Part shown: in pieces, positions 6,234-50,029 of the stretch
How positions within the stretch are numbered: position 1 is the stretch's first letter
Layout: every line of letters begins with the position of its first letter
Source: Tannerella sp.
GTDB taxonomy: Bacteria; Bacteroidota; Bacteroidia; Bacteroidales; Tannerellaceae
Assembly: GCA_031257565.1 (NCBI GenBank)
Contig: JAIROL010000080.1
Location: 1 to 50,481 of the forward strand
Direction of reading: 5' to 3'
Length of the DNA stretch: 50,481 nucleotides
Made by a program: the position numbers and the translations under genes
Notes under the pieces: generated by a model
The model's database searches: none
What the model was told of the DNA's origin: nothing
What the model saw: the letters and a program-made list of their open reading frames with translations, nothing else

Positions 6234-8681
6234 ATGAAAAAATTCTTGTCTAAATCACAAATTGTATCTGTTATCCTGTTTGGCTTATCGCTGACAATCA
6301 ATCAGGGTGTTTATGCCGGAAACAGTATTGAATTATTGGCGAAAGACGCTACTGTAAAAGGCAACTTGAAAATAGAAGATAAAGGTAGCAAAGATGTACG
6401 AATTAAGAAAAATATTGATTTCGACTGGAAATTTATTCAAAGCGATGATGAATCATTCTCGCAGGTGCAGATACAACTTGATACTGCTGTATGGAAAGAT
6501 GTTCAATTGCCGCACGACTGGAATATAACGATGAATTTCGACCGTCAAGCAGGCGGTGCGGCTGCATACCTGCCCGGAACGGTTGGCTGGTATCGCCGGG
6601 AATTAAACATTCCAAAAAATTATTCGTCGAAAAAAACATCAATTCTTTTTGATGGAATATTCAACAAATCAAAGGTTTATATTAACGGAAATCTTCTCGG
6701 TTTCCGTCCCTACGGTTTTTGCAGCATAGAATACGATTTAACTCCTTATTTAAACTTTGGCGGCAAAAATATTATTGCCGTCCGTGTTGATTGCACCGGT
6801 GAACGTCCACGCTGGTATGCCGGTTCGGGAATTTACCGTCATGTTTGGCTAAATATTGTGAATCCCATTCATATACCTACTTACGGGACTTACGTTACAA
6901 CGTCGGCAGTTAACGAACAATCAGCAGATATTCAGGCTGTTACTACTGTTAAAAATCTGCTTGCCGAAACAAAAAAAATCACGATTATGCAAATCATAGT
7001 CGATAATAGCAGCAAAGAAATCGCACGATTTTCGACAAATATTGAAATTGCTGCCAGTGATTCGAGCAACATAACTCAAAACACACAAATCCGGAACCCG
7101 GCGCTTTGGAGTATCCAAAATCCGGCGCTTTACACACTGATAACTACAATAACGGAAAACGGAAAAATGATTGACAATTATTCGACAAATTTTGGCATTC
7201 GCAGTTTTGAATTTACAAGCGACAAAGGCTTTTTTTTGAATGACAAACCCGTAAAGCTCAAAGGAATGTGTTTGCACCAGGACGGCGGCATACTTGGAGC
7301 GGCCGTTCCGATGCGCGCTTACGAAAGACAGTTGCAAATCATCAAAGAATATGGTTGTAATGCCGTTCGTTGTGCTCACAATCCGCCTTCTCCCGAATTT
7401 CTTGATTTGTGCGACCGTATGGGCTTTATTGTAATCGACGAGGCATTCGACAAATGGAAATCAGGCTATTATGCCGAATTTTTTGACGAATGGTGGCAAC
7501 GTGATCTGGAGAATATGTTACTCCGCGACCGGAATCATCCAAGCGTTATGCTTTGGAGCATTGGCAATGAACTTCAGGAAGCATGGAATATCGACGACGA
7601 GGGGGTCGAACGTGCACAAATATTGAATAATTTTGTTCATAAAACAGAACCGGGTCGTCCGACCGTACTTTCGGCACAGAACAACCATCAAACCAAATTT
7701 GCAGGCGTTACCGACGTTACCGGATACAACTACCTCGAAGCCCGTGCCGTTAGCGACCATATAAATTTTCCTCAACGCCGCATAATTATAACTGAAGAAT
7801 TGCCTTATTACAGTGGAGAGGAAGGCAATATTCGCAGTTACAGCACAAATAATCCATGGAATACTATTGTAACAAATGATTTTATTGCAGGCGGTTTTAT
7901 TTGGTCGGGAGTGGATTATCTGGGTGAAGCAACTTATCCGGGTAAGGGTTGGCCTAACGGACTTTTCGATATTTGTATGAACGAAAAACCGCGTGCTGCT
8001 TTCCACAGGGCAATGTGGAACAACAAGCCGATGGTTCGTATGGCTGTCAGGGATAATGCTCTCGACATTGAGCACGGACGCGACCTTTGGCAATGGCCTA
8101 AAATGGCATCACACTGGAATTTCCCCGATTCATATCAGGGAATGATTATGGAAGTACTGACTACTACAAACTGCGAATCGGTAGAGTTGTACATGAACGA
8201 TAAATTAATGGGCAAACGTCGTACCGACGATTTCCCTAATCATACGATTGTTTGGAATGTACCTTACTCGCCGGGCGAATTGATAGCTAAAGCATATAAT
8301 GGGAACAAAGAAGCAGCTCAATATAGAATAACTACAACCGGCAATACGGCAAGAGCAATACTTACACCCGACCATAGCGAAATACATGCCGACGGTTACG
8401 ATTTATCCTATATTTCGGTTACACTCGAAGACGAGAAAGGTAATTCCGTGCAAACCGACGACCGCGAAATAACTGTTACAGTAACCGGCGAAGGGAAATT
8501 TATGGGAATGATGAACGCAGACTTACGTCGTGATAACTCCTTTCAGGGCAACAAACTTAAAACTTATTTCGGCAAAGCGCTCATAGTTGTTCAATCAACC
8601 CGCAAAGCAGGTGAAATTACAGTCGAAGCAAAAATAGAAGGTAACAACAAGACATACAAAGTGAAAATTACAACGAAATAA
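6234..8681 (+). CDS. GH2 family glycoside hydrolase (beta-galactosidase-like)
   Basis: Exo-acting retaining glycosidase of 815 aa with a signal peptide (IVSVILFGLSLTINQGVYA). The GH2 sugar-binding jelly roll is at about 60-210 (LPHDWNITMNFDRQAGG, GWYRREL, INGNLLGFRPYGF). An Ig-like domain follows, then a TIM barrel with acid/base Glu in SIGNELQEA (E446) and nucleophile in IITEELPY (E521). C-terminal Ig-like and DUF4982-type domains complete it. Members of this family remove galactose, arabinopyranose or glucuronic acid. In a xylan locus, terminal galactose or arabinopyranose on complex xylan side chains is a reasonable target, but the sugar cannot be read from sequence. It belongs to the same operon as the upstream GH43. 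Confidence 0.9.
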   Translation: MKKFLSKSQIVSVILFGLSLTINQGVYAGNSIELLAKDATVKGNLKIEDKGSKDVRIKKNIDFDWKFIQSDDESFSQVQIQLDTAVWKDVQLPHDWNITMNFDRQAGGAAAYLPGTVGWYRRELNIPKNYSSKKTSILFDGIFNKSKVYINGNLLGFRPYGFCSIEYDLTPYLNFGGKNIIAVRVDCTGERPRWYAGSGIYRHVWLNIVNPIHIPTYGTYVTTSAVNEQSADIQAVTTVKNLLAETKKITIMQIIVDNSSKEIARFSTNIEIAASDSSNITQNTQIRNPALWSIQNPALYTLITTITENGKMIDNYSTNFGIRSFEFTSDKGFFLNDKPVKLKGMCLHQDGGILGAAVPMRAYERQLQIIKEYGCNAVRCAHNPPSPEFLDLCDRMGFIVIDEAFDKWKSGYYAEFFDEWWQRDLENMLLRDRNHPSVMLWSIGNELQEAWNIDDEGVERAQILNNFVHKTEPGRPTVLSAQNNHQTKFAGVTDVTGYNYLEARAVSDHINFPQRRIIITEELPYYSGEEGNIRSYSTNNPWNTIVTNDFIAGGFIWSGVDYLGEATYPGKGWPNGLFDICMNEKPRAAFHRAMWNNKPMVRMAVRDNALDIEHGRDLWQWPKMASHWNFPDSYQGMIMEVLTTTNCESVELYMNDKLMGKRRTDDFPNHTIVWNVPYSPGELIAKAYNGNKEAAQYRITTTGNTARAILTPDHSEIHADGYDLSYISVTLEDEKGNSVQTDDREITVTVTGEGKFMGMMNADLRRDNSFQGNKLKTYFGKALIVVQSTRKAGEITVEAKIEGNNKTYKVKITTK

Positions 8682-35209: not shown

Positions 35210-37426
35210 ATGAAAATTAAAAGAATAATATGGTCAATTACACTACTAATGTTTTGCAGTAGTATTTTGTTTTCACAATCTCCTGAGAAAACACTAAAAG
35301 ACGCCTTAAAAGACAAGTTTTATATGGGAGTCGCCTTGAATCTTAAGCAAATCTCAGGCAGGGATGCAGCCGATGTAAATATTATCAAACGGCATTTCAA
35401 TGCCATCGTTGCGGAAAACTGCATGAAAAGCATGTATCTCCAGCCTCGTGAAGGCGAATTCAACTTTGTGGACGCTGACCGGTTTGTTTCATTCGGCGAG
35501 CAAAACGGAATGTGGATTACCGGGCATTGCTTAATCTGGCACAGTCAGTTGCCCCGGTGGTTTTTTGTCGATGAGCATGGAAACGATGTTTCGCCGGAAA
35601 CGCTGAAAGCCAGAATAAAAAGCCATATTTCAACGGTAGTCGGCCGTTATAAGGGACGTATTAAAGGCTGGGACGTCGTGAATGAAGCCATCATGGAAGA
35701 CGGCTCGTACCGGAAAAGCAAATTTTATGAAATACTTGGAGATGAATTTATTCCGCTGGCTTTTCAATACGCGCAGGAAGCCGATCCTGATGCCGAACTG
35801 TATTACAACGACTACAATGAATGGTATCCCGAAAAACGGGTAACAGTTGTACGGTTGATAAAAACGTTGAAAGAAAGGGGAATCCGTATCGACGCCATAG
35901 GCATGCAGGGACATGTTGGCATGGACAGCCCGTCGATTGAGGAATACGAACAAACGATAGCGGATTATACCGATGCAGGGGTTAAGGTAATGGTTACGGA
36001 GTTCGATTTATCCATATTGCCCCCGCCTCGCCGCAATGCAGGCGCTGATATAGCTACCAATTTCGCCTATCAGAAAGAATTGAATCCTTATACCGAGAGC
36101 GTTCCTGATTCGGCTTCGATAGCATGGGCAAACCGGATATCGGATTTATTCAAACTGTTTCTGAAATATTCCAGCGAAGTTTCCCGAGTTACCATGTGGG
36201 GGGTAACGGACGGCGGCTCATGGAAGAATGATTTCCCGATAAGGGGAAGAACAGATTATCCGCTGCTGTTCGACCGTAATTACAACGCAAAACCCATCGT
36301 TCAAAAGTTAATTGAACAGGCAACATATCAACACGGATGCAGCATAAAAACGCCGGACGATTATTTAGTCCCGGACGATTACATGGCCGACCCTGCCGTC
36401 CATGTTTTTGAAGGCAAACTGTATATTTATCCCTCGCATGACAGGGAAAGCGGTATTCCCGAAAATGACAGCGGCGACCAGCCTTTTATCGTCTATTTGC
36501 ATGAGGACATAGAGCGCAGACACATTCATATCGTATCGCTTCGTGTCGACGGAGACGGCAAAAAGATTAGCGATAAGTTTGAACACCGCCGCTCGATGGA
36601 TGCCTGTCGCGAGCTGGAACAGAAATACGGGCTGATTCCCGCCGACCAAAAACAGCGTCAGGACGGTTTACCGTTAAAACCTGTACGGTATGATGAAGGC
36701 GATGTGAAACATCAGATAGCAAACGTTATTCGCCCGATTGCCCGGTCGTGGCATTTCCAAAGTTTGAAAGAATACAGGGCGCTTCTTACATTATATAATA
36801 CAGGCATGGAAGAAATTCGCGGCGAGGTGAACGGCAAACCGTATCGGGGACTGGTTTATTCCGCCCTGAACGACAACGGCGAGAAGGTGGGGATGCCGTT
36901 CAAATCTTCGCTTTTCGGCAAGTCCGTTGGCGTCGAAGCGCTGGAAAAACGGATTGAAAAATCGACGGAGATTATCAAAAACAGAGGGTTGAAAGAGCGC
37001 AGCAAAAAGGTTATTTCCGCTGCCATGCGCGGTTGTGGGAGCCGTTCCGACTTTGAGCGGCTGCTGGCCAAACAGGGCATTTCCGTTCTTTTCCGCACGA
37101 ATGACGGGGGCAGGATTTATGGTGCAACCTTTATCGATCACGAGCAAAAATGCGTGTTTAACGGCTCGCGTCTGGGCAGGGAGTTTTCGGCCAACGTGTT
37201 CAACGACCTGTTTAACGGCAACGGACGTATACCGGAACAGCACGACCATAGAGCCGGACATCCCTTTGAGCCGTTTGAAAATACTTCCCATAAGGAAGAA
37301 AATCAGGGTTCGGGCATCGGCGGCATCTTCAACTTCTTTTCGCCCGAAACGCGGGGCGACGAAATCGAAGAACAGAACTTCACCCGCCGACTGAAGAAAA
37401 GAAAAAAGCGTCAAAGACGCATGTGA
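35210..37426 (+). CDS. Chimera: GH10 xylanase + start of GH43 fused to relaxase C-terminus
   Basis: One uninterrupted 738-codon frame from two unrelated genes. Residues 1-20 are a signal peptide. Residues 25-385 are a GH10 endo-1,4-beta-xylanase with both catalytic glutamates (WDVVNEA, E159; VMVTEFDL, E264) and substrate motifs (GHCLIWHSQLP, YNDYNEWY, MWGVTDGGSW). Residues 390-423 (YLVPDDYMADPAVHVFEGKLYIYPSHD...) are the first blade of a GH43 domain, as in Bacteroidales GH10-GH43 bifunctional enzymes. From Q424 the protein is a CTnDOT-type MobB relaxase missing its N-terminus (see separate entry). The xylanase domain should still fold and act, but the C-terminus is nonsense for a secreted enzyme. 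The joint is either a real deletion/recombination or an assembly join. Confidence 0.88.
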   Translation: MKIKRIIWSITLLMFCSSILFSQSPEKTLKDALKDKFYMGVALNLKQISGRDAADVNIIKRHFNAIVAENCMKSMYLQPREGEFNFVDADRFVSFGEQNGMWITGHCLIWHSQLPRWFFVDEHGNDVSPETLKARIKSHISTVVGRYKGRIKGWDVVNEAIMEDGSYRKSKFYEILGDEFIPLAFQYAQEADPDAELYYNDYNEWYPEKRVTVVRLIKTLKERGIRIDAIGMQGHVGMDSPSIEEYEQTIADYTDAGVKVMVTEFDLSILPPPRRNAGADIATNFAYQKELNPYTESVPDSASIAWANRISDLFKLFLKYSSEVSRVTMWGVTDGGSWKNDFPIRGRTDYPLLFDRNYNAKPIVQKLIEQATYQHGCSIKTPDDYLVPDDYMADPAVHVFEGKLYIYPSHDRESGIPENDSGDQPFIVYLHEDIERRHIHIVSLRVDGDGKKISDKFEHRRSMDACRELEQKYGLIPADQKQRQDGLPLKPVRYDEGDVKHQIANVIRPIARSWHFQSLKEYRALLTLYNTGMEEIRGEVNGKPYRGLVYSALNDNGEKVGMPFKSSLFGKSVGVEALEKRIEKSTEIIKNRGLKERSKKVISAAMRGCGSRSDFERLLAKQGISVLFRTNDGGRIYGATFIDHEQKCVFNGSRLGREFSANVFNDLFNGNGRIPEQHDHRAGHPFEPFENTSHKEENQGSGIGGIFNFFSPETRGDEIEEQNFTRRLKKRKKRQRRM
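36479..37426 (+). pseudogene. mobB: mobB relaxase 3' part (conjugative transposon)
   Basis: The frame after the joint reads PFIVYLHEDIERRHIHIVSLRVDGDGKKISD, followed by FEHRRSMDACRELEQKYGL. This is the metal-binding HxH segment (HIHIV) and downstream region of Bacteroides conjugative-transposon relaxases, followed by VKHQIANVIRPIA, GLVYSALNDNGEKVG, SLFGKSVG and GRIYGATFIDHEQKCVFNGSRLG and a basic tail (RRLKKRKKRQRRM). The N-terminal part, with the strand-cleaving residue and first conserved block, is missing, so it cannot nick oriT. In the parent element MobB would work with MobA and the MobC coupling protein encoded 40 nt downstream. Confidence 0.88.
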
Positions 37427-39987: not shown

Positions 39988-40073
39988 ATGATTTGTTTTT
40001 AAGTTAAAAATGGACTGACAAGTTTAAGAAACTTTAAAGAATATAGAATGCTAAACATTGATTAATAATGTAA

Positions 40074-40289
40074 CTATTCAGCTTCCGGCACCAAGGCAAT
40101 AAGCGCAAGTGCCTTCAAAACATTTTGAGCGTTTTTAAGGGTAGTGTCAATGACGGATCGAATAACTGAAAACGCATTCGCCCCTTCCGGAGAACGGAAG
40201 AGTCCGGAAACTTTCTGCTTGACTTTGAATGTTCTCACTGCCCTTTCGGAAGCGTTATCACAACTTTTGGATAATGGCGCATATCCCAA
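40074..40289 (-). pseudogene. IS66-family transposase C-terminal fragment
   Basis: The frame GYAPLSKSCDNASERAVRTF followed by KVKQKVSGLFRSPEGANAFSVIRSVIDT is the C-terminal end of Bacteroidetes IS66 TnpC (NNAxERxIR motif followed by the VGRKNW/VKMKVSG-like segment). Only about 70 codons remain; the catalytic core and the accessory genes are absent. It lies immediately upstream of trio 1, which may have inserted into it. The interval 39988-40073 shows nothing recognisable. Confidence 0.75.
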
Positions 40290-40360
40290 CTTTTTTCATA
40301 TCCCAACTTTTTTCATAACAGATAGATATAGAATGAATAACTGACGAAAAGTTGTGATAA
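40255..40360. repeat. 14-bp inverted repeat bracketing a 17-bp tandem duplication
   Basis: TTATCACAACTTTT (40255-40268) is matched inverted by AAAAGTTGTGATAA (40347-40360). Between them CATATCCCAACTTTTTT is repeated head to tail (40280-40296 and 40297-40313). The left arm lies inside the IS66 fragment. The block sits 45 nt before the trio 1 start and probably marks that element's left boundary. Confidence 0.6.
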
Positions 40361-40404: not shown

Positions 40405-41643
40405 ATGAACGTAAGTAAATTACAGAAGAATCACCCATTATTGCTTGAATATCTTCATGATAATGGGTACAGCCGCAGTCATATTCAATGGATGAAGCGG
40501 TGTATCAGACTGGTTTTGAATGAAGGGTCATCCCCCGGGATTGAATCCTATGAACAACTCTATTGGCATGAGGTAGAGAAAGGTGAGTATAAAGAGACTG
40601 CTCAGGTTCGCAAAACCCTGAAATCAGTACTTGGTTGTGTTAAGCGGTTCGAACAGGAGGGCATATATCCACAGCCCCGTCTGTGCCATGGATTTATGGC
40701 GCCGACAAAGAGTTATGATTTGCTTGGGGATGAATACCGGTCAATTATAGACCATTATGAGCGGACAGCCGGAGAGGGGACAAAAGTAGCACATACTATT
40801 TACACGGAACGCCGGGCAGGTATTCAATTCTTATTGCATTTGCAGAACGCAGGAGTAGCGTCAATCACAAACACGACGGAAAGGGCAGTACTTGATTTTT
40901 TCTTTGACGGGGAAAAAATCATCAGGGGCAGAGCTTATAGAGAAAAGATAACTCCGGTATTGAAATCTGCAATTACATTATACGGAGAACCCGTCAGGCG
41001 GCTACTGTCTCTAATTCCATCCATTCCCAAAAGTTATTCGAATTATCCTTACCTGACCCGTTCCGAGTCGGATAAGTTTCGTATATGGCTTGAAGAAGAG
41101 AACACTCAGTTAACCTTGCTGGACAAGGCTATTGCAACCCTCGCCTACTATACCGGACTTCGCGGGACGGATATTTTATCATTGAAACCGGATAATATCG
41201 ACTGGAAGAAAGAAACGATTCATCTGGTCCAGTCAAAAACCGGCATGGAACTGACACTGCCAATGAGCGCAATCGTTGGTAACGCCATCTGGGATTATCT
41301 TGTTTATGAACGCCCCGGGTCAGGATTGGAAGATGAAACTGTTTTTGTGAATGGGTGCAGGCCATACAATAAAATCTCCAGTATATGGGATCATCTGAAA
41401 AATGTATTTAATGAAGCCGGAGTGCGCACGGATGGCGGCAGGACGGGAGTCCGCATTTTCCGTCACCACCTGGCTACGGCATTACTGGGGAATCGGATTC
41501 CCTCACCCGTAATCAGTTCCATACTTGGGCACACCTCGCCGGAATCCATCATACCCTGTGTGGATGCAGACATTGAACACCTGCGCGAGTGTAGCCTTGA
41601 TATAACCGGATATCCGGTAGCAAAGGAGGTGTTTGAATCATGA
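40405..41643 (+). CDS. Trio 1 recombinase A (tyrosine recombinase family, active site altered)
   Basis: 412-aa phage-integrase-family protein, first of three overlapping recombinase genes. An N-terminal SAM-like core-binding domain (about 1-200) precedes the catalytic domain with the first Arg in YYTGLRGTDILSLK and a beta-hairpin Lys region (LVQSKTGMELTLP). Box II reads RIFRHHLATALL where HxxR is expected (His to Arg), and the tyrosine position reads IIPCVDADIEHLR against TTRFYLKIDMDGLR in trio 2, so the nucleophile Tyr is Cys. Both changes are single transitions (CAC to CGC; TAT to TGT). The protein probably cannot cleave DNA but may still bind ends. The stop overlaps the next start by 4 nt. 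Confidence 0.88.
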   Translation: MNVSKLQKNHPLLLEYLHDNGYSRSHIQWMKRCIRLVLNEGSSPGIESYEQLYWHEVEKGEYKETAQVRKTLKSVLGCVKRFEQEGIYPQPRLCHGFMAPTKSYDLLGDEYRSIIDHYERTAGEGTKVAHTIYTERRAGIQFLLHLQNAGVASITNTTERAVLDFFFDGEKIIRGRAYREKITPVLKSAITLYGEPVRRLLSLIPSIPKSYSNYPYLTRSESDKFRIWLEEENTQLTLLDKAIATLAYYTGLRGTDILSLKPDNIDWKKETIHLVQSKTGMELTLPMSAIVGNAIWDYLVYERPGSGLEDETVFVNGCRPYNKISSIWDHLKNVFNEAGVRTDGGRTGVRIFRHHLATALLGNRIPSPVISSILGHTSPESIIPCVDADIEHLRECSLDITGYPVAKEVFES

Positions 41644-42623
41644 AAAGGCCTTATCGTTCCTGTCTGGCTGAACAGATCGAAGAATTTGTTTACAGCAAAA
41701 GAGCCTCCGGCAGATGGTGTCAGTCGTACGAAGAAAATCTTCACTTCTTTGATAATTACTGCGCCGCCCACTTCCCGGATGCATCTGTCCTGACCGGTGA
41801 GATGCTTGAGTGGTGCAATGAACGTCCGACAGAAAATGGAAACTCCTGCAAATACCGCATCACGGTGGTATCCCATTTTGTGAAATATGCACAAAATATA
41901 GGATGGACAGTTATAGCGCCGCCAAAAGTGCCACCCCAGAGACCGTGTACATACATTCCCCATGCCTTTACAAAGGATGAATTAATCCGTTTCTTCCAAG
42001 CGTGTGACAGGCATGTCGTCGATTTTTTTAACCGTCAGAATTGCCTTGCCGGCAAACTAAACAAACTGGAACTCCCTGTATATTACCGTCTTTTATTAAG
42101 TACCGGCATGCGAACCAATGAAGCCGGATGGTTGAATCGCTCTGATGTTGACCTGGCAGAAGGGGTAATCAATATTAACCGGTCCAAAGGAACTGACCAA
42201 CATCGTATCGCATTGCACGAAAGCATGTTAAAACTTCTCAAAAAATATGATGTGCATATGGACGGGCTTATCCCGGATCGTAATTGTTTTTTCCCAAACA
42301 AAAACGATTGTTTCCATCGTCCCGCCCGGGCTGAATACCACTTCCGCATCATATGGAAAGAAGTCAGTAAGGAGCCTGCCCGTCCGTATGATTTAAGGAG
42401 TTACTATACCGTTGTCAACATGACGGGATGGACGGAACCGGGTTTTGAACTTCACGATAAACTGCTGTATCTCAGCCGGACAATGGGACACAGGCAGATA
42501 AACAGCACGTACAGGTATTTTAATTTATCTCCCCGGCTTGCGGATAAAATTAAATCCCTGACGGAAGCATCGTTCAATAATCTCCTCCCTAAATTACCCG
42601 ATTATGAGCAGAATGAAGAATGA
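41640..42623 (+). CDS. Trio 1 recombinase B (tyrosine recombinase)
   Basis: 327-aa second recombinase of trio 1, coupled to A by an ATGA overlap and overlapping C by 20 nt. The core-binding part (EQIEEFVYSKRASGRWCQSYEENLHFFDNYC) matches the B proteins of the other trios. Catalytic-domain marks are STGMRTNEAGWL (Arg I), LHEKLL/RTMGHRQINSTYRYFNL (box III His and Tyr). Box II is RPYDLRSYYTVV, with Tyr in place of the His of HxxR; trios 2 and 3 have HDLRH. Together with the altered A and truncated C, trio 1 looks like a decaying copy. Confidence 0.88.
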   Translation: MKRPYRSCLAEQIEEFVYSKRASGRWCQSYEENLHFFDNYCAAHFPDASVLTGEMLEWCNERPTENGNSCKYRITVVSHFVKYAQNIGWTVIAPPKVPPQRPCTYIPHAFTKDELIRFFQACDRHVVDFFNRQNCLAGKLNKLELPVYYRLLLSTGMRTNEAGWLNRSDVDLAEGVININRSKGTDQHRIALHESMLKLLKKYDVHMDGLIPDRNCFFPNKNDCFHRPARAEYHFRIIWKEVSKEPARPYDLRSYYTVVNMTGWTEPGFELHDKLLYLSRTMGHRQINSTYRYFNLSPRLADKIKSLTEASFNNLLPKLPDYEQNEE

Positions 42624-43599
42624 ATATCAGGCCGTAGAAATAGCACGGTTGACGTTCGACTGGATAAATGTGCATATACCCGCCTTGAGAAGCAACAGTC
42701 CACATACGGTCAGAGCTTATAAAACAGCAATCAATCTCTATGTGGGTTATCTGGAAGATAAAGGTATAACCGACCGGACACTGAATGCGGCATGCTTCTC
42801 GGCATCCTGTCTGAATGACTGGCTTATATGGCTCAAAGAGGAACGGAACTGCAGCAACAGGACATGCAACAACCGCCTGGCAGCCATCAAATGCCTGCTG
42901 AAATATATCGGCACAAGAAATGCCGTCTATAACGTATTATACTTGGAGGCATCTACAGCAGTCAAGCGGCTCAGGGAAGCAAAACCAATGGTTGAGGGAA
43001 TGACAAGGGATGCGGTAAGGGCAATACTTGCGGTTCCCGACCCGTCCGGCAAAACAGGTTTGCGGGACATCGCTATCATGTCTTTTGAATATGGAACAGC
43101 TACCCGTATTGATGAAGTCCTGTCGTTAAAAATCAACAGCCTGAAGTTAAACGCGGATAAACCTTATGCTACCATCCTTGGAAAAGGCCGTAAAATAAGA
43201 ACCGCCTGTCTGATGCCCGGATTAGTTGAAATCCTCAGGAAATACATAAAGGTGTTCCATGGGGCAAAGCCTGGACAGGACGATTATCTGTTTTACTCTT
43301 CATGGCATGGTCAAAAATCAAAACTGTCACAGGAAGCGGTGCGTAAACGTCTGAAAATCTATGCATCCAAAGCTCATGCAACCTGTGACGATGTCCCGCT
43401 GAAACTTCACAGTCATCAGTGGAGGCAATATGTAGAGTTCTACAATATGGGGAGTGAAGTGCAAAAAGGATTGATTTCCTGTGATTTATTCACAAAACAC
43501 TTCCCATATTTATATTCACAATCTACTTATTTACATAAATTATTTAGCCATTGCATGAGGTTCTCATCATCATTCCATTTGGGCATTTCATCTGTATAA
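42604..43599 (+). CDS. Trio 1 recombinase C, truncated at box II
   Basis: Third trio 1 recombinase. It is homologous to the other C proteins (NSPHTVRAYKTAINLYVGYLEDKG; YGTATRIDEVLSLKI with Arg I; LGKGRKIRTACLMP) up to LHSHQWR, R274 of HxxR. At that codon (43423) the sequence switches into the 36-bp terminal repeat of trio 2. The frame then reads QYVEFYNMGSE and about 46 further non-homologous residues to a stop at 43599, antisense to the trio 2 C gene. Box III and the catalytic Tyr are missing, so this protein cannot be active. Confidence 0.88.
   Translation: MSRMKNEYQAVEIARLTFDWINVHIPALRSNSPHTVRAYKTAINLYVGYLEDKGITDRTLNAACFSASCLNDWLIWLKEERNCSNRTCNNRLAAIKCLLKYIGTRNAVYNVLYLEASTAVKRLREAKPMVEGMTRDAVRAILAVPDPSGKTGLRDIAIMSFEYGTATRIDEVLSLKINSLKLNADKPYATILGKGRKIRTACLMPGLVEILRKYIKVFHGAKPGQDDYLFYSSWHGQKSKLSQEAVRKRLKIYASKAHATCDDVPLKLHSHQWRQYVEFYNMGSEVQKGLISCDLFTKHFPYLYSQSTYLHKLFSHCMRFSSSFHLGISSV
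43423..43511 (+). repeat. Left terminal repeat of trio 2
   Basis: It contains the palindrome GTAGAGTTCTAC (43432-43443), then AATATGGGGAGTG (43444-43456). After 41 nt comes its near-perfect inverse CACTTCCCATATT (43498-43510), so each element end can be read as two inverted recombinase-binding arms. It lies 15 nt outside the trio 2 C stop codon. Confidence 0.8.
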
Positions 43600-44555
43600 A
43601 GTTCCTTGTAGGATTCTTCCAAAGCTTTACGTTTCATTTCATTGTCTGCGCGAGCATATACCTCAGTTGTAGTCACATTGGAATGTCCAAGAAAGTCCCT
43701 TATATACAACAAGTTAATGCCCGACTTCAACATTCCAACGGCTTTAGAATGACGAAGTACGTGAGGTGTGACGGGGAAGTTCACAGTGAATTCAATATTT
43801 TTTTTTGCCATTTCTACATACCCATTCAAAATAAAGGAGATTCCCCACCGTGTTAACGGTTGATGTTTCCGGTTACAAAATACCGGTATGTCTGATAATG
43901 CTATTCCCCAAGAATATTTTTTATGATCTTCAAGATATGCTGTTAATAAATCCTTTACCCTTCCTAATATTGGAACATGTCTGGTTTTATTGCCTTTCCC
44001 ATGAAGAGTTATAATAGCAGGAGTGTTCAACCTGATATCTTTCATTTTAAGATCAGCAATTTCTTGTACTCTTGCTGCACTGTCATACATCAGCGTTAGT
44101 AATACCAAATCCCGTCTCCCTTGTTTTGTTCTTATATCAGGCTGTTGAAAAAGTATCTTCAGTTCGTTTTCAGTGAGATATGGTACGATTGTCTTAGCCG
44201 TTTTTCCGTATAGGATTCCAATAATTCTTTGTACCTCAAACATTCTTTCGGGTAATTCTTTCTGCACATATTTAAAAAAGCCATGGATGCAGGATAAACG
44301 CTGATTTCTTGTAGTAATGGTACATTTACGTTCAACCTCCAACCAATCCAGATAATCTATAATAAGTTCTTTAGTGAATAAAGAGATTGTTATCCGATCA
44401 GGTGTTATCTTCATTTTTTGCTCACAGAATAAAAGGAAAAGTCGAAAAGTATCCCTGTAAACGGCAACTGTATTGGTGCTTAGCTTTTTCTCACCGACTA
44501 AATATGTTGTCATAAAACGTGATAAATACCGTGCAAAATCATTGTTCTTTTTCAT
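43527..44555 (-). CDS. Trio 2 recombinase C (intact tyrosine recombinase)
   Basis: 342-aa tyrosine recombinase, the only full-length C protein of the three trios. Core-binding domain at about 1-110 (FMTTYLVGEKKLSTNTVAVYRDTFRLFLLFCEQ). The catalytic domain has SAARVQEIADLKM (Arg I), HGKGNKTRHVPIL (Lys), TPHVLRHSKAVGML (box II) and DFLGHSNVTTTEVYARAD (box III and nucleophile Tyr). It begins in the stop codon of B (ATGA overlap at 44552-44555). It resembles Bacteroidales site-specific integrases; in trio elements all three are needed for transposition according to the general model. Confidence 0.9.
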   Translation of the reverse strand: MKKNNDFARYLSRFMTTYLVGEKKLSTNTVAVYRDTFRLFLLFCEQKMKITPDRITISLFTKELIIDYLDWLEVERKCTITTRNQRLSCIHGFFKYVQKELPERMFEVQRIIGILYGKTAKTIVPYLTENELKILFQQPDIRTKQGRRDLVLLTLMYDSAARVQEIADLKMKDIRLNTPAIITLHGKGNKTRHVPILGRVKDLLTAYLEDHKKYSWGIALSDIPVFCNRKHQPLTRWGISFILNGYVEMAKKNIEFTVNFPVTPHVLRHSKAVGMLKSGINLLYIRDFLGHSNVTTTEVYARADNEMKRKALEESYKELYTDEMPKWNDDENLMQWLNNLCK

Positions 44556-45514
44556 GGGAACCTCCCTTCCGGAATGACATATCCCAATGTGGCTTCCGTC
44601 TTGCTTATTATATCAGGATAAAGATCTGCCGTTAATCGAAGGTAGTACTGTGTCCCCCTAAAATCGGCATGCCCCAGATAGACACTGAGATATGGAAAAA
44701 GGTTAGTGATATCTTTTCCATCTAAAACCCATTTTTTCAGGCGATTAACGCAGTACGAGTGCCTGAGGTCGTGAATTCTGGGTCCGTGACCTGAATGTGG
44801 TATACCTGCAGACCATAAGTATTCACGGAACCTCCTGTATGCTGTACTTCTGTCAAGACGTCTGTTTAACGGACTTTTAAAGTAATAAGTGTTCTCATCA
44901 CTGAATATGTGTATTTCTTTATTTAATGTTATACTCCTGTTTACCAGGCTTGTTGCCATCGGTATTTTTCTATCCCTATTGTTTTTGGACTGTAATATGG
45001 TTACTGTTCCTTCAACAATATCAACATCTTTAAGCTTCAGATTGAGTGCTTCCGACAATCGTAAACCACAGCCATAAATCATACGGAACATTAACCTGTC
45101 TACAAGGTGACGGTTACTCAACGGGTGCGGAGGGTAGTGATCTGCCGCCTGAAAAAAAAGACTGAGTTCTTTTTCCGAAAAAATGTAAGGTATACAAGTC
45201 TGTTTGGGAGGCGCCGACTTCACCGGACAGATATAGGAGGCATACCCGACATTACATAAGTATTCAGCCAATCCCCTCAATAGTTTTTCCTTTTTGTATC
45301 TTGTAGAAGCCTTCTCATAATGTATCCCGTAACAAAAGTTATTAACCAACTCATCATTTAACCCATTGCCGTTAAAACCGGTATCAAAACAATACTGATC
45401 AAACATTTCCATCATTCTCGCTTCTGTTTCATATTTAAAACCCGACATACGCTTCATCATCAGGTATTCTTGCATTTTTGCAGCAAGTTTGCTTTTCCAT
45501 ATATAGTTACTCAT
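44552..45514 (-). CDS. Trio 2 recombinase B (tyrosine recombinase)
   Basis: 320 aa from ATG 45514 (MSNYIWKSKLAAKMQEYLMMKRMSG), which overlaps the A stop by 8 nt (ATGAGTAA); a longer frame begins at 45535. Catalytic residues are all present: YGCGLRLSEALNLKLKD (Arg I), QSKNNRDRKIPMA (Lys), RIHDLRHSYCVNRL (box II), LGHADFRGTQYYLRL (box III, Tyr). A long insertion between box II and III (KKWVLDGKDITNLFPYLSVY) is shared with trio 3 B and distinguishes B proteins from A and C. Confidence 0.9.
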   Translation of the reverse strand: MSNYIWKSKLAAKMQEYLMMKRMSGFKYETEARMMEMFDQYCFDTGFNGNGLNDELVNNFCYGIHYEKASTRYKKEKLLRGLAEYLCNVGYASYICPVKSAPPKQTCIPYIFSEKELSLFFQAADHYPPHPLSNRHLVDRLMFRMIYGCGLRLSEALNLKLKDVDIVEGTVTILQSKNNRDRKIPMATSLVNRSITLNKEIHIFSDENTYYFKSPLNRRLDRSTAYRRFREYLWSAGIPHSGHGPRIHDLRHSYCVNRLKKWVLDGKDITNLFPYLSVYLGHADFRGTQYYLRLTADLYPDIISKTEATLGYVIPEGRFP

Positions 45515-46757
45515 GGCATACCTCCTCCGGATCAATTATGCAGTTACGCAGTCCGTCCATATCAATTTTCAGATAAAATCTGGTTGTTTGGATGCTCTGA
45601 TGTCCAAGGGCTTCGGAGATAACAGGAAGAGGAGTTCCGTTTTCAAGTAAAACATAGGCCAATGTACTTCTCAACGAATGAAGACCATGTTTTTGATTGT
45701 TCATTCCTTCTATTTTAGCTTTAAGCATATGCCTTGTCAACATTTTATGCAGGCAGTTATGATCTGCAAATCCGTCATATGGTGCTTTATGGCGAATAAA
45801 TATAATGTCGGTATCGGTTTGAGGCCGTCCATTTTTCAAATAGTCAATAACTGCCCAGCCCACATCTTCAAGCAGGGGTAATTCAAGTTGCTGCTTTGTC
45901 TTTTGCATGGCAATGGAAATCAGTTTGCGGTTCCAGTTTAAGTCCGACAGTTTCAATGCACGCACATCGCCTACACGTAAACCCAATCTTACGACCAACA
46001 AAAGTATCGCATAATCACGTTTTCCCTTTGGATTTTGACGATCAATTGATTCGAGCAACTTCTTCACGTCTGTCTGTTTCCAAACTGAAGGAATAAATGG
46101 ATTGCGTGTAATCTTCATATTAGGAAGGTGAATGCTTAAGTCACTTTTAATTAATCCCTCTTGATAAAGAATCCTAAGATAATTTCGTAGTCTGGATACC
46201 GTAGAACCAATATATCTCGAACTATAATCTTTTTGGGATGACAAGAACTTCAGTATATGAATATTTGTCATTTCAGAAGAAGAAGTAATCCCCTCTTTTT
46301 TCAAAAACACAAGAAACTTCTGTAATGACCAGTATATTGATGCTTCGCCCATAGGAGCATAATTCCTGGCTCTGCATGCCTTCTTAAACAACTCGTAGTC
46401 AGAGTTGAATTCCTCAGGGCATTCAAACGGCTTTTTTCCGTACATTCGCTTCTTTTCATGTAAACCGTTTTCTGTATAACCTGAAAGAACTTTCAATGCC
46501 CTGATGTAAGAAATAGAAGAGCGTGTATTAAATGAATGTTTGTCATACAAATCATTAATAGTAATGCCGAATTTAAATCGAATAAAATCAATAGCAAGTG
46601 CATTGGAATAAGATTCCAGGTTTTTCCCTTCAATGAATTTTTTCAGATTATCATAACATTGACGGTAGCTACCGATTGTATAATCAGCATACTTTTGCTT
46701 TTCCATGTCTGTTAATACCAAATTCATGAGTTCTTGGATGTTCAAATTTTGTTTCAT
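45507..46757 (-). CDS. Trio 2 recombinase A (tyrosine recombinase)
   Basis: First gene of trio 2, 416 aa from ATG 46757 (MKQNLNIQELMNLVLTDMEKQKYADYTIG), preferred over the upstream in-frame start at 46805, which lies inside the terminal repeat region. It has a long N-terminal core-binding region (about 220 aa) and a catalytic domain with RLGLRVGDVRALKL (Arg I), MQKTKQQLELPLL (Lys), HGLHSLRSTLAYVLLENG (box II) and EALGHQSIQTTRFYLKID (box III, Tyr). Transcription must start within or just inside the right terminal repeat, only about 85 nt away. Confidence 0.9.
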   Translation of the reverse strand: MKQNLNIQELMNLVLTDMEKQKYADYTIGSYRQCYDNLKKFIEGKNLESYSNALAIDFIRFKFGITINDLYDKHSFNTRSSISYIRALKVLSGYTENGLHEKKRMYGKKPFECPEEFNSDYELFKKACRARNYAPMGEASIYWSLQKFLVFLKKEGITSSSEMTNIHILKFLSSQKDYSSRYIGSTVSRLRNYLRILYQEGLIKSDLSIHLPNMKITRNPFIPSVWKQTDVKKLLESIDRQNPKGKRDYAILLLVVRLGLRVGDVRALKLSDLNWNRKLISIAMQKTKQQLELPLLEDVGWAVIDYLKNGRPQTDTDIIFIRHKAPYDGFADHNCLHKMLTRHMLKAKIEGMNNQKHGLHSLRSTLAYVLLENGTPLPVISEALGHQSIQTTRFYLKIDMDGLRNCIIDPEEVCHE

Positions 46758-46786
46758 ACTAATAATTTTTAAATAAATATTAGTAC

Positions 46787-46875
46787 AAATATGGGAAGTA
46801 AGCAATCAATAAATCACAGAGTATCAGCATTTATTATTTTTCACTCCCCATATTGTAGAACTCTACATATTGCCT
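46787..46875 (-). repeat. Right terminal repeat of trio 2
   Basis: Inverted counterpart of 43423-43511: 36 of 36 outer bases identical, plus the two inner blocks at the same spacing. It also interrupts the C recombinase of trio 3. The innermost block (CTTCCCATATTTG on the minus strand) is close to a Bacteroidetes -7 element and might double as part of the trio 2 promoter. Confidence 0.8.
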
Positions 46876-47679
46876 GATAGAGTGGCAACTTAACACTTTA
46901 GGTATAATTTTATCATTCATTGCCCGTGCTTGGGAAGCGTATGTCAAAAGAATATATGTGATTCCAGCCCTTGACAGCCTCTCTCCACGACTATTAAAAA
47001 ACAAGGGGGTGACCGCATCATCTATATTCTCCAAACGATAATCTGCGATATATGCTTTTAGTATTTCTACCTGTTGATTCATTAAAGGGACTATACGTAT
47101 TTTCCGGCCTTTCCCGACTATCCTAACCGTATAAGGTTGAGATGCTATTCGAAGTGAACCAATAGTCAAATCAGCCAACTCCTGCACACGCGCCCCGGTA
47201 TCATACAATAATGACAGTATAGCCAAGTGCCTTCTACCACTTGCTGTAGTAATATCAGGTTGTGCCAAAAGCAGTTTTATTCCTTCGACAGTGAGATAAT
47301 TCAATGTACGCCCTGCTTCTTTTTTAGGTCGTATTGACAAAACTTCTTGCCATTGCTTTAGTTTCTCAATGTCAATATATTGCATATATCTAACAAATGA
47401 AAGTAACGCTGCAAGCCTGTAGTTGGATGTGGCAACTGAACATTTTCGGGTAGATATAATCCAATTTAGGAAGGCGTTGATATTTTCCTTATTTAAGTCA
47501 GAGATACCGATATTTTGAACAGGTTTATTTTTAATGATTTTCATAAAATCTATGAACAGAACAAATGCGTCACGGTAGGCTGCAACCGTGTTTGGGCTTA
47601 AATTCCTTTCGTGGGGCAGATACTCTGATAGGTACTTTGTTATGTATTTTGCAAAATCTTTTTTGTCTTGATTACTCAT
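46834..47679 (-). CDS. Trio 3 recombinase C, truncated at box II
   Basis: 281 aa from ATG 47679 (MSNQDKKDFAKYITKYLSEYLPHERNLSPNTVAAYRDAF), overlapping the B stop by 8 nt. It follows the C-family up to VLSCHSIR, R269 of HxxR. The AGG codon at 46873-46875 is the outer edge of the trio 2 terminal repeat, and the frame then ends QYVEFYNMGSEK. Arg I (TGARVQELADLTI) and Lys (VGKGRKIRIVPL) are present; box III and Tyr are lost. The truncation point is the same codon as in trio 1 C although the two genes are otherwise diverged. Confidence 0.88.
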   Translation of the reverse strand: MSNQDKKDFAKYITKYLSEYLPHERNLSPNTVAAYRDAFVLFIDFMKIIKNKPVQNIGISDLNKENINAFLNWIISTRKCSVATSNYRLAALLSFVRYMQYIDIEKLKQWQEVLSIRPKKEAGRTLNYLTVEGIKLLLAQPDITTASGRRHLAILSLLYDTGARVQELADLTIGSLRIASQPYTVRIVGKGRKIRIVPLMNQQVEILKAYIADYRLENIDDAVTPLFFNSRGERLSRAGITYILLTYASQARAMNDKIIPKVLSCHSIRQYVEFYNMGSEK

Positions 47680-48664
47680 GATGATAAATATTAGGATAAA
47701 CAAACGCATTTGTTGGTGAACACTTTTCTTGAAGTTCAGGATACATTGAACTTGTCAATCTAACGTACAGTTCTGTGGAAGATAAGCATTTATGCCCCAT
47801 GCAGGTAGATAAAATAGGCATGGCTGTATAGAGGTCTATACCATTTTTACTTAATTGTATCAACGAATGAACAGCGAAAGTATGCCGTAAGTCGTGGACT
47901 CTTGGTCCATGAGACTTGCCATGATGCGGAATGCCACATTTTTCCAATAACTGTCGAAACATACCATATACGGAATGACTCACCACTCTACCTCCATCCG
48001 CTTTGATAAAGTACAGTGATTCGAGCAAAGAAATTCCCCGGACAGGTAGTTTTGATTTGTAATATTCATATTGATTTAGGGTCAACATAAGTGATTCACT
48101 TATTGGGACAAGCCTGTCTGAACCATTTTTTGTTTTCCGTATATGTATGTATTTCTCATCTTTATTAATATCCTTATTCCGGATTGATACAGCCTCTGAT
48201 ATGCGTAATCCCGTCCCATAAAGGACGCGAAGCAATGCAGGCATTGCAAACAACATACTGTGAGTATGATGCACTTTTAGTTTCCATGTATCACATTCAT
48301 GGAAGATTCTATTTATTTGGTCAACTGTAAAAATATATGGCACAAAACTTTTAGGCTCTTTCCTTGGTAGCTGTGGTACGAAAGTGTTATAGCCATTTCT
48401 GTTCATGTATCGGGCAAACATAGACCAAACCGTAAGTTTTTGATATATGGTACTTGGAGAGTTGTTTGTTAATGACTTTCGCCATTTCTCAACGAACTCG
48501 GGTGTCATTTCGGGTTGGGACAATTTTTCTGCGATAGCAAAACGGTCTAACTCCTTAAAGCATTTTTTTAACCATCTGCAATCTTGTCCAGTGGCGGTTT
48601 TCAAGTTCAAAAACTGCTCCATTGCACAGGCAAAAGAACTTGAGAAGCAATAATCTTTATTCAT
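47672..48664 (-). CDS. Trio 3 recombinase B (tyrosine recombinase)
   Basis: 330 aa from ATG 48664 (MNKDYCFSSSFACAMEQFLNLKTATGQDC), whose ATGAATAA overlaps the A stop by 8 nt. Catalytic residues are intact: YGTGLRISEAVSIRNKD (Arg I), RKTKNGSDRLVPI (Lys), RVHDLRHTFAVHSL (box II), MGHKCLSSTELYVRL (box III, Tyr). It has the same B-type insertion between box II and III as trio 2 (SKNGIDLYTAMPILSTC). Related to but clearly diverged from trio 2 B, so the trios are separate arrivals rather than recent duplicates. Confidence 0.9.
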   Translation of the reverse strand: MNKDYCFSSSFACAMEQFLNLKTATGQDCRWLKKCFKELDRFAIAEKLSQPEMTPEFVEKWRKSLTNNSPSTIYQKLTVWSMFARYMNRNGYNTFVPQLPRKEPKSFVPYIFTVDQINRIFHECDTWKLKVHHTHSMLFAMPALLRVLYGTGLRISEAVSIRNKDINKDEKYIHIRKTKNGSDRLVPISESLMLTLNQYEYYKSKLPVRGISLLESLYFIKADGGRVVSHSVYGMFRQLLEKCGIPHHGKSHGPRVHDLRHTFAVHSLIQLSKNGIDLYTAMPILSTCMGHKCLSSTELYVRLTSSMYPELQEKCSPTNAFVYPNIYHHE

Positions 48665-49898
48665 AAAATACTCCTCCTTCCTGCGTATAAAATGATTCAT
48701 CAACACTCGGTACTGGTAAGGCACAACTTAAAAGAGATTTTAAATCGATTTTTAAGTATGTCAATGTCGTTTGCGTTTTCTTATGTCCTAATACTTCAGA
48801 TATGGTTGGTATGGTTTCCCCGTTTGTCAACATACATGCGGCAAGGCTATGACGCATTGAGTGAGATCCATGATGACGGTTGCCGGTATCCACGGATGAA
48901 TGTTGTATTATTTGGGATATTACGCTACTTATTCCAGACGATATTATTTCATCATACGGAGTAACTGCGCATAGGAAAATTTGTTGACTCCCTGATTTCG
49001 GGCGACCATTACGCAGATAATCAATGATGGCATTACCCACTTCAGGCAATAAAGGCAGTTCGATTATTTTGCCGGTTTTATTCATGGTGAGCGTAATTTT
49101 ACTCGTATCCCAGTTTATATCCGAAAATTTAAGTGTTGCTATGTCAGATGCCCTTAATCCAAGACGGGTAGCTAAAAGCAGTATCGCATAGTTGCGTTTT
49201 CCCAGCGGATTTGCACAGCTCACAGACTCCTCTATTCTAACTATTTCCTCCTTGTTGTAGCAGGACGGTATCTTTTCTTTTTTGATAACAGGTATTGTAT
49301 TGAATAATTCTTGATAATCTCTATCCACAATACCCTCGATGTGCCAAAATCTAAATATGCTACGTAATGTACTTATGCAATTAGGCAGATCTGTTCTCCG
49401 CGATGAGACGTAACGAACGATGTCTGGCTCTGAAATCATACTGATATCATTTACCCCATTGGTTGACAAGTTCATTAAGAATCCACTTAAATGCAGCCTA
49501 TGACGTTCAAGCGTTGACTTGGCTCTTCTCTGATTTTGTAGATGCAAAAGGAATTTTTTCATTTCTTTGCCAATTATGCCATCTAAAGGATGTACTGTTG
49601 GGACAGTACGCCTCTTACTGATAGCTCCGAACATCAGCATGTCATCTAATACATCTATGGCTCGTATCCTATCACGAGTCGGATTTTCCTGTGGATTCTC
49701 CGTTAAATAAGTGTTCCGATACTCCAAGCCTATACTAACATCATAAATGTATAAGCCTTTTTCTTGCATGAATGGGATGATGCCGTTATTCCAACGGCAT
49801 TGATATTCCCGAATCCTGTCTTCTGAATAGTTATGCCCACGAAAAAAGGACAAACAATCTTTAATGAGTTGCGTAATTGGTAATTCTTTCATTTCCAT
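48657..49898 (-). CDS. Trio 3 recombinase A (tyrosine recombinase)
   Basis: 413 aa from ATG 49898 (MEMKELPITQLIKDCLSFFRGHNYSEDRI); an upstream extension to 49976 runs into the element end and is unlikely. Long N-terminal core-binding region, then RLGLRASDIATLKF (Arg I), MNKTGKIIELPLL (Lys), HGSHSMRHSLAACMLTNG (box II), EVLGHKKTQTTLTYLKID (box III, Tyr): intact. Its closest relative in the window is trio 2 A. With an intact A and B but truncated C, trio 3 is probably no longer autonomous. Confidence 0.9.
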   Translation of the reverse strand: MEMKELPITQLIKDCLSFFRGHNYSEDRIREYQCRWNNGIIPFMQEKGLYIYDVSIGLEYRNTYLTENPQENPTRDRIRAIDVLDDMLMFGAISKRRTVPTVHPLDGIIGKEMKKFLLHLQNQRRAKSTLERHRLHLSGFLMNLSTNGVNDISMISEPDIVRYVSSRRTDLPNCISTLRSIFRFWHIEGIVDRDYQELFNTIPVIKKEKIPSCYNKEEIVRIEESVSCANPLGKRNYAILLLATRLGLRASDIATLKFSDINWDTSKITLTMNKTGKIIELPLLPEVGNAIIDYLRNGRPKSGSQQIFLCAVTPYDEIISSGISSVISQIIQHSSVDTGNRHHGSHSMRHSLAACMLTNGETIPTISEVLGHKKTQTTLTYLKIDLKSLLSCALPVPSVDESFYTQEGGVFYE

Positions 49899-49941
49899 AT
49901 TTATTTTAATTGTAAGGCAATATCGCCTACGCAAAATAACA

Positions 49942-50029
49942 TTATGGGAAGATATTATGCAAAGTGCTGATTTCATTGCTTTGATAATTAATAACTTGTA
50001 TCGAATCTATACTCGATACTTTCCATAAT
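49942..50029. repeat. Outer end of trio 3
   Basis: ATTATGGGAAGAT (49942-49954) and its near inverse ACTTTCCATAAT (50018-50029) are spaced like the AATATGGGGAGTG / CACTTCCCATATT arms of trio 2. An inner palindrome GTATCGA (49998-50004) / TCGATAC (50013-50019) is also present. The block marks where trio 3 sequence gives way to conjugative-transposon sequence. The corresponding inner end would lie beyond the lost half of its C gene. Confidence 0.5.

Follow-up and report, generated by a model that had tools for sequence, protein, structure and literature searches.

A RIT element between two recombinase genes cut at the catalytic Arg-His box in Tannerella sp., with counterparts on plasmids

Recombinase trios and the junctions of trio 2

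The right end of a 50,481-nt stretch of Tannerella sp. DNA (GenBank assembly GCA_031257565.1, contig JAIROL010000080.1; "the window" below means this whole stretch) consists of three trios of tyrosine recombinase genes, with trio 1 oriented rightward and trios 2 and 3 leftward. The complete trio 2 is flanked by the C genes of trio 1 (C1) and trio 3 (C3), both of which are present as N-terminal parts only. The subject of this analysis is trio 2, a RIT element, and the site at which both neighboring C genes switch into it. The features are as follows (coordinates, strand, description and basis):

40405..41643 (+), trio 1 gene A, tyrosine recombinase; open reading frame (ORF), resembling the A genes of loci L064, L065 and L066
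41640..42623 (+), trio 1 gene B; ORF and protein comparison
42604..43425 (+), N-terminal part of trio 1 gene C (putative victim 1), ending at the HQWR cut; alignment
43422..43427 (+), target word GAGGCA, 6 bp, at the left junction, comprising the Arg codon and the first two His bases; end set through L045
43428..46870 (-), trio 2, RIT element, 3443 bp; ORFs, end repeats, L045 comparison and Pfam
43428..43514 (+), left terminal inverted repeat arm of trio 2; arm comparison
43527..44555 (-), trio 2 gene C, intact, 342 aa, HVLRH..LGH..Y, with Arg-His codons CGT CAT; ORF, alignment and Pfam
44552..45535 (-), trio 2 gene B, intact, with Arg-His codons AGG CAC; ORF and Pfam
45507..46805 (-), trio 2 gene A, intact; ORF and Pfam
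46784..46870 (-), right terminal inverted repeat arm of trio 2; arm comparison
46871..46876 (-), target word CAGGCA, 6 bp, at the right junction; sequence
46873..47709 (-), N-terminal part of trio 3 gene C (putative victim 2), ending at the HSIR cut; ORF and alignment
47672..48724 (-), trio 3 gene B; ORF and protein comparison
48657..49976 (-), trio 3 gene A; ORF and protein comparison
49999..50018 (no strand), imperfect palindrome, 20 bp (8/10 pairs), upstream of trio 3 gene A; a candidate, as other RITs have a palindrome there

Trio 2 shares with RIT elements the adjacent, overlapping A-B-C tyrosine recombinase genes, a length of about 3.5 kb and inverted repeats, and the palindrome found near one RIT end is seen in its relatives. 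Its genes A2, B2 and C2 lie on one strand and matched Phage_integrase with E values of 2.5e-28, 3.6e-22 and 3e-29, respectively, while the terminal arms of the 3443-bp element matched at 72 of 92 nt, with the outer 36 bases identical. Protein A2 (432 aa) gave one SAM-like match at residues 138–218, with about 137 residues ahead of it (Pfam); in the available part of PMC8138268, RitA is described with two core-binding domains and RitC with an extra C-terminal helix. Two features that are usual but not defining in RITs are distributed differently: the palindrome beside one end is absent from trio 2 and present beside its nearest relative (L045, on a contig titled Bacteroidetes bacterium; 76, 66 and 57% identity for C, B and A, respectively), and identical copies, the usual sign of mobility, occur fourfold for a relative in genome G041 while trio 2 is single-copy.

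An alignment (MAFFT) of 20 C proteins, three from the window and 17 relatives, placed the divergence of C1 (ending in LHSHQWR) and C3 (ending in LSCHSIR) from the family at the R of the HxxR motif; the other 18 read on via H into the rest of the domain. The Phage_integrase matches of both shortened proteins stopped at profile position 133 of 172. The arginine codon is AGG in both genes, at 43423–43425 and, on the opposite strand, at 46873–46875. Coordinates and alignment thus agree with an earlier note on this DNA, according to which both genes switch at the box arginine codon into the repeat bounding trio 2. The shared tail QYVEFYNMGSE is not the end of native C genes, which that note had named as a sign to the contrary; it is the trio 2 end translated in frame. 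The 36-bp repeat itself could be kept only in part, since it comprises about 31 bp of element end plus the bases AGGCA (Arg + His), give or take one base, that belong to the targets. They were assigned to the targets because comparison with L045, whose ends start (A)ATATGTAGAGT, starts the element at (A)ATATG.

The 60 bases preceding each cut agreed at only 13 positions between C1 and C3. Therefore, no DNA homology lines up the two breakpoints, and homologous recombination between C1 and C3 does not explain their coincidence. In a gene about 1 kb long, two independent cuts would coincide in position with a chance of roughly 1 in 1000 (an estimate). The contig holds nothing downstream of the arginine of either gene, catalytic tyrosine included. 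This missing remainder accords with the earlier proposal that the element kills related elements on insertion, and we infer that trio 2 disabled C1 and C3.

RIT elements at the Arg-His box on plasmids

The same arrangement was found on the closed Cupriavidus necator plasmid pHG1 (L203), where a middle RIT is flanked by a converging pair of identical RITs (arms of 3119 nt). Both flanking C genes read KSITPHTLRH and then pass into the end of the middle element, TATATGCCCTTCC, and both junctions were the same in a second pHG1 record. The family of this middle element, a Proteobacterial one, resembles trio 2 in target box and three-element arrangement but forms a separate clade of the C tree and has another end sequence (TATATGCCCTTCC vs. 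ATATGTAGAGTTC). In the available part of PMC3414803, RITs are reported in a transposase and a radC gene with a flanking palindrome, and no explanation is given for truncated RITs carried by pHG1 and by plasmid 2 of strain EbN1; here, the two plasmid cases resolve into junctions at one catalytic-box codon of recombinase genes.

Twelve further elements with a related C gene, picked by similarity and not by context, were taken from 207 plasmid records, giving a sample of 13 with the pHG1 middle element. Ends were found for 12 of them (L215 was unresolved), and all 12 lay at the Arg-His box of a tyrosine recombinase gene. HxxRH closes 11 junctions in 10 elements. The pHG1 element has PHTLRH on both sides; among the rest, MHTLRH and PHVLRH occur twice each, and PHWMRH, LHDLRH, PHIFRH, VHTLRH and PHTWRH once each. 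In L204 and L213, it is the C-half that begins at the box, beyond a palindrome-like stretch, and across the family the C-half begins at (R)H[ST] on seven far sides. Of the six Arg codons, five appear in the words at the N-halves, as do both His codons. Best matches identified the interrupted gene as RIT C in L203, L210, L212 and L214 and as RIT B in L208; matches were weak in L206, L207 and L211 and lacking for L205 (23 codons open) and L209 (29 codons), and the C-half in L205 and L206 resembled another kind of integrase. All five relatives of the interrupted pHG1 C gene (92–98% identity) were uninterrupted at the box and represent empty sites.

On the side opposite the N-half, the six bases abutting the element read Arg-His in 8 of 10 elements, compared to 0.5% of background 6-mers. 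These words may be read as relics of earlier Arg-His targets, because SEs likewise carry 6 bp of the old site along (PMC10214605, available part). The earlier note had proposed the HxxRH stretch of sibling C genes as the target. The box is borne out by the two trio 2 junctions and the 12 of 12 plasmid cases; the restriction to C genes is not, as the plasmid targets include one RIT B gene and several other or unclear integrases, in a family that stands outside the clade of trio 2. Taken together, insertion of some RIT lineages at the catalytic Arg-His box of tyrosine recombinase genes, siblings included, is supported. As a separate observation, L204 (pHG1, 29–44 kb) is a second copy of the Arg-His box RIT and faces a RIT whose C protein is 96% identical to its own.

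Insertion, exchange and alternative explanations

A RIT insertion generally has a 6-bp word at each end of the element. Beyond the word on one side come a palindrome of about 20 bp, a further 6 bp and one target half; on the other side, the word is followed at once by the other target half. A perfect 20-bp palindrome stood on one side of L045, L055, L077, L081 and L083, and one with 9/10 pairs beside L064. In genome G041, four identical trios (L047–L050; C about 40% identical to C2) all interrupt topoisomerase III genes between IAEK and PS (Pfam Toprim and Topoisom_bac, one flank checked). The 6-bp word here is GAAAAG; on the N-terminal side comes a 19-bp near-palindrome and then the word in inverted form. 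The element occurs in both orientations. Two of these four RITs additionally have a stretch of N, and their end is repeated 105 bp farther out.

In the window, trio 2 directly adjoins an N-terminal target half on both sides. Because one insertion leaves one N-half and one C-half, a pair of N-halves requires a second exchange. In the proposed mechanism, trio 2 would have inserted into one C gene, and an exchange between its palindrome-bearing end and the Arg-His word in the C gene opposite would have followed; the palindrome would be lost along with the two C-terminal halves, N-half, element and N-half would remain, and the competing elements would be disabled. We regard it as likely that the trio 2 recombinases use a 6-bp exchange word to join the ends of the element to the codons for Arg-His in the HxxR-H box, in C genes of other RITs.

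Rearranged products of a comparable kind were seen elsewhere. Locus L208 (EbN1 plasmid 2) reads B N-half, element and C C-half, and looks as if the stretch between two Arg-His boxes had been lost. The complementary product is seen in L080, where a 22-bp palindrome without an element links the C-halves of two distinct B genes, both of which begin at Arg-His, and in L078 an element with palindromes on both sides stands between two IS66 transposase C-halves (Pfam IS66 C-terminal element). All three fit either an inserted end exchanging with a second target or the crossing of two insertions, and the pHG1 end state together with the EbN1 product suggests that exchange between two Arg-His boxes recurs.

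Several orphan halves were considered. No convincing orphan half of C1 was found, and contig C111 of the source genome (G000) was ruled out as the missing half of C3, its Arg codon being AGA and that of C3 AGG. Orphan C-halves in G050 and G019 had no clean motif at their start, the B remnants in L057, L059, L063 and G071 were not cut at the box, and G342 holds a decayed, uncut C gene. Contigs C111 (end 15948), C245 (start) and C55 (start) of G000 end within about 10 bases of the Arg-His box in trio B or C genes; such ends fit insertions by repeated elements or population differences, a weak sign that was not counted.

The arrangement could also have started from two trio 2 copies inserted in opposite orientation in C1 and C3, with homologous recombination or misassembly across the repeat leaving one element and two N-halves. 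The target specificity would be unchanged, and only the second step would differ. Relative to the palindrome, the G041 element is found in either orientation, the source genome is a draft of 294 contigs, and crossing would yield the N-half, element, N-half product along with a C-half, palindrome, element, palindrome, C-half product of the kind seen at L078. Against this stand the contig itself, which spans the element with different flanks while no other copy or end was found in the assembly, although repeats usually break contigs; the same end state in two pHG1 records; and the L080 joint of two C-halves through a palindrome without an element, which is not expected from recombination inside an element. 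We consider the two-copy course possible but rather doubtful. A target consisting merely of a short DNA word (near AGGCA) that lies in the box by chance, with no specialization on recombinase genes, appears improbable. The insertion of L045 in a peptidase gene would suit it, as would the presence of the word in trio 2's own B gene and the agreement of the two junction words at five of six bases; yet Arg-His 6-mers make up 0.5% of positions and both trio 2 junctions fall on the homologous C gene codon, the 12 resolvable plasmid family members are all in tyrosine recombinase genes, and the codon variety of that family leaves no single DNA word. Finally, that the C genes of trios 1 and 3 end here naturally or through ordinary decay is hardly conceivable: nothing was found in its favor, the 18 other aligned C proteins continue past the box, and the tail that both genes share comes from the inverted repeat of trio 2.

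Several results weigh against joining of trio 2 to the Arg-His box by its own recombinases. Only two trio 2 junctions exist, both on one contig of the draft; the flanks before them are unrelated, so that shared recognition is seen only in the 6-bp word, and no palindrome stands at either trio 2 end in the window, for which reason the normal insertion step is not visible. The B gene of trio 2 has CAGGCAC at its own box and yet stays uncut. Self-avoidance through codon choice was rejected: C2 uses CGT CAT, but B2 uses AGG CAC. No second copy or end of trio 2 was found elsewhere in the G000 assembly. The 36-bp repeat, allowing up to three mismatches, was limited to its two window copies among 123 genomes of the family, the other 122 having none; the repeated insertion after HxxR and the empty sites that the earlier note had proposed as a check came instead from the more distant plasmid family, with 12 of 12 resolvable members and five empty sites. 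Searches of the window's family and order with C-terminal C and B queries (123 and 344 genomes each; N-halves unsearched) found trio genes cut at the Arg-His box in G000 and G129 only. Unrelated targets, which the earlier note had named as a counter-sign, were in part observed, as L045 is inserted in an M23 peptidase gene (Pfam) between SPFGFR and VHP, for which reason Arg-His specificity is at most a putative trait of the lineage of trio 2 and L045. None of the six nearest plasmid relatives of trio 2 shows the Arg-His target (the sites of two, L224 and L225, being unreadable). The L045 site and these six relatives weigh most heavily against a fixed Arg-His habit in the lineage of trio 2. Within the plasmid family, 2 of the 10 words opposite the N-half read Leu-His (L209 and L214), and the palindrome was often poor: on 10 far sides it paired at 9/10 in L204, 8/10 in L212, 8/11 in L205 and 7/11 in L206 and was weaker in six, including L208, L210 and L213. 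Neither palindrome nor C-half was seen on the far side of L209, L211 and L214. For L207, the other side of the element was not found. The C-half to C-half joint predicted for pHG1 was not among the best 30 of 144 records, and it is probably absent because a near-identical copy should rank in the best 30.

Relatives, other targets and neighboring features

In the C protein tree, trio 2 and L045 formed one clade (100/100) separate from the plasmid Arg-His family. Common descent of the target in both lineages thus found no support in the tree, and the shared target would represent convergence or be very old. Close relatives of trio 2 were scarce. Protein C2 matched 9 of 393 genomes of the order at E ≤ 1e-60, G000 included (best other relative 45%), and two of 395 genomes of the phylum at E ≤ 1e-75, namely G000 and one at 43%; a single scan of genome contigs returned L045 (76%) and a 28% Lysinibacillus match. 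Neither the degenerate end pattern nor protein C2 matched viral contigs, and trio 2 DNA had no match in plasmids (megablast) or phages (blastn).

The six best plasmid relatives by C protein (37–42%) were L222–L227. L223, L226 and L227 lie in what looks like a group II intron reverse transcriptase gene, at its PQGG motif; the L223 flank has an RVT_1 match, and L226 and L227 were assigned by motif alone. L222 adjoins an integrase gene, apparently away from its Arg-His box. L223, L226 and L227 are RITs on Rhodococcus and Agrobacterium plasmids and have a 20-bp palindrome on one side.

Other RITs interrupted an rve-type transposase gene, IS21-like by motif (L083; Pfam), an IstB gene near the Walker A motif (L077; Pfam), a PcfJ gene (L051, with L079 at the same site; Pfam) and IS66 transposase genes (L078, by Pfam; the outer RIT of pHG1, by annotation and motif). 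Joined flanks of eight insertions served as controls and gave a readable target in four (L083, L077, L051 and L045); those of L081 and L055 were not readable, and those of L064 and L050 had no open frame over the join, the L050 target having been read from its flank. RITs in radC and in an IS66 transposase are likewise reported in the available part of PMC2864759, while PMC10214605, as far as available, states that RIT target specificity was not formally tested and that RIT transposition is yet to be reproduced in the laboratory. In a further two loci, from two genomes, C-halves of trio C genes were met at another motif: in L086 (3347–3640), a trio type related to trio 1 adjoins the C-half of another trio's C gene between I and RDFLGH, and L152 (near 7700–8066) is similar but reads I and RDILGH, with only about 185 bp of element end on the contig, 78% identical to that of L086.

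The motifs interrupted (the Arg-His box, IstB near Walker A, IS21-type and IS66 transposases, topoisomerase III, PQGG, PcfJ and M23 peptidase) raise a wider view, to which we give about an even chance. RITs as a class would be hunters of catalytic motifs, each lineage aiming at one conserved motif, mostly in genes of mobile elements, and carrying along a 6-bp relic of its last victim; recombinase hunters would have arisen at least two times and would wage a direct, sequence-specific war by breaking the enzyme gene of the competitor. With two separate branches of RITs at the box, some mobile elements appear to specialize in breaking competitors. The catalytic codons of a gene family cannot drift far, so the target stays available, and its use removes competitors. 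The findings further offer an explanation for the truncated RIT genes on pHG1 and EbN1 plasmid 2, open since 2012 in the part of PMC3414803 available, and with a defined target and near-identical empty and filled sites, an integration assay for RITs becomes straightforward.

Comparable behavior is known from other elements, described here from the available parts of the sources. The res site hunters (Tn5053/Tn402; PMC7765201) likewise home in on the recombination system of plasmids or mobile elements, but with tniABQ genes and a res target, whereas trio 2 has three tyrosine recombinases and lies within the enzyme's coding sequence. In SEs and Tn554 (PMC10214605), each element has several recombinases and takes a 6-bp word from the old site to the new one, and GInts (PMC5385486) also have several recombinases, with unrelated GInts found in ssb genes. 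The gene sets of all three differ from that of trio 2, GInts having imperfect repeats of 10–11 nt, and insertion into recombinase genes is not described in the available sections of these accounts.

Two neighboring features of the window were also noted. Left of trio 1, at about 40066–40290 (-), lies what looks like the C-terminal end of a transposase gene of IS66 type (APLSKSCDNASERAVRT; Pfam IS66 E value of 0.00045, below the curated cut-off), which is probably the target of trio 1 itself. At 35210–37426, a glycosyl hydrolase family 10 domain (residues 29–368) is fused in frame to the C-terminal part of a MobA/VirD2-type relaxase (residues 422–475, profile positions 77–132 of 132); the fusion lies near the HEDIERRHIHIV motif and is perhaps another junction at a catalytic motif.

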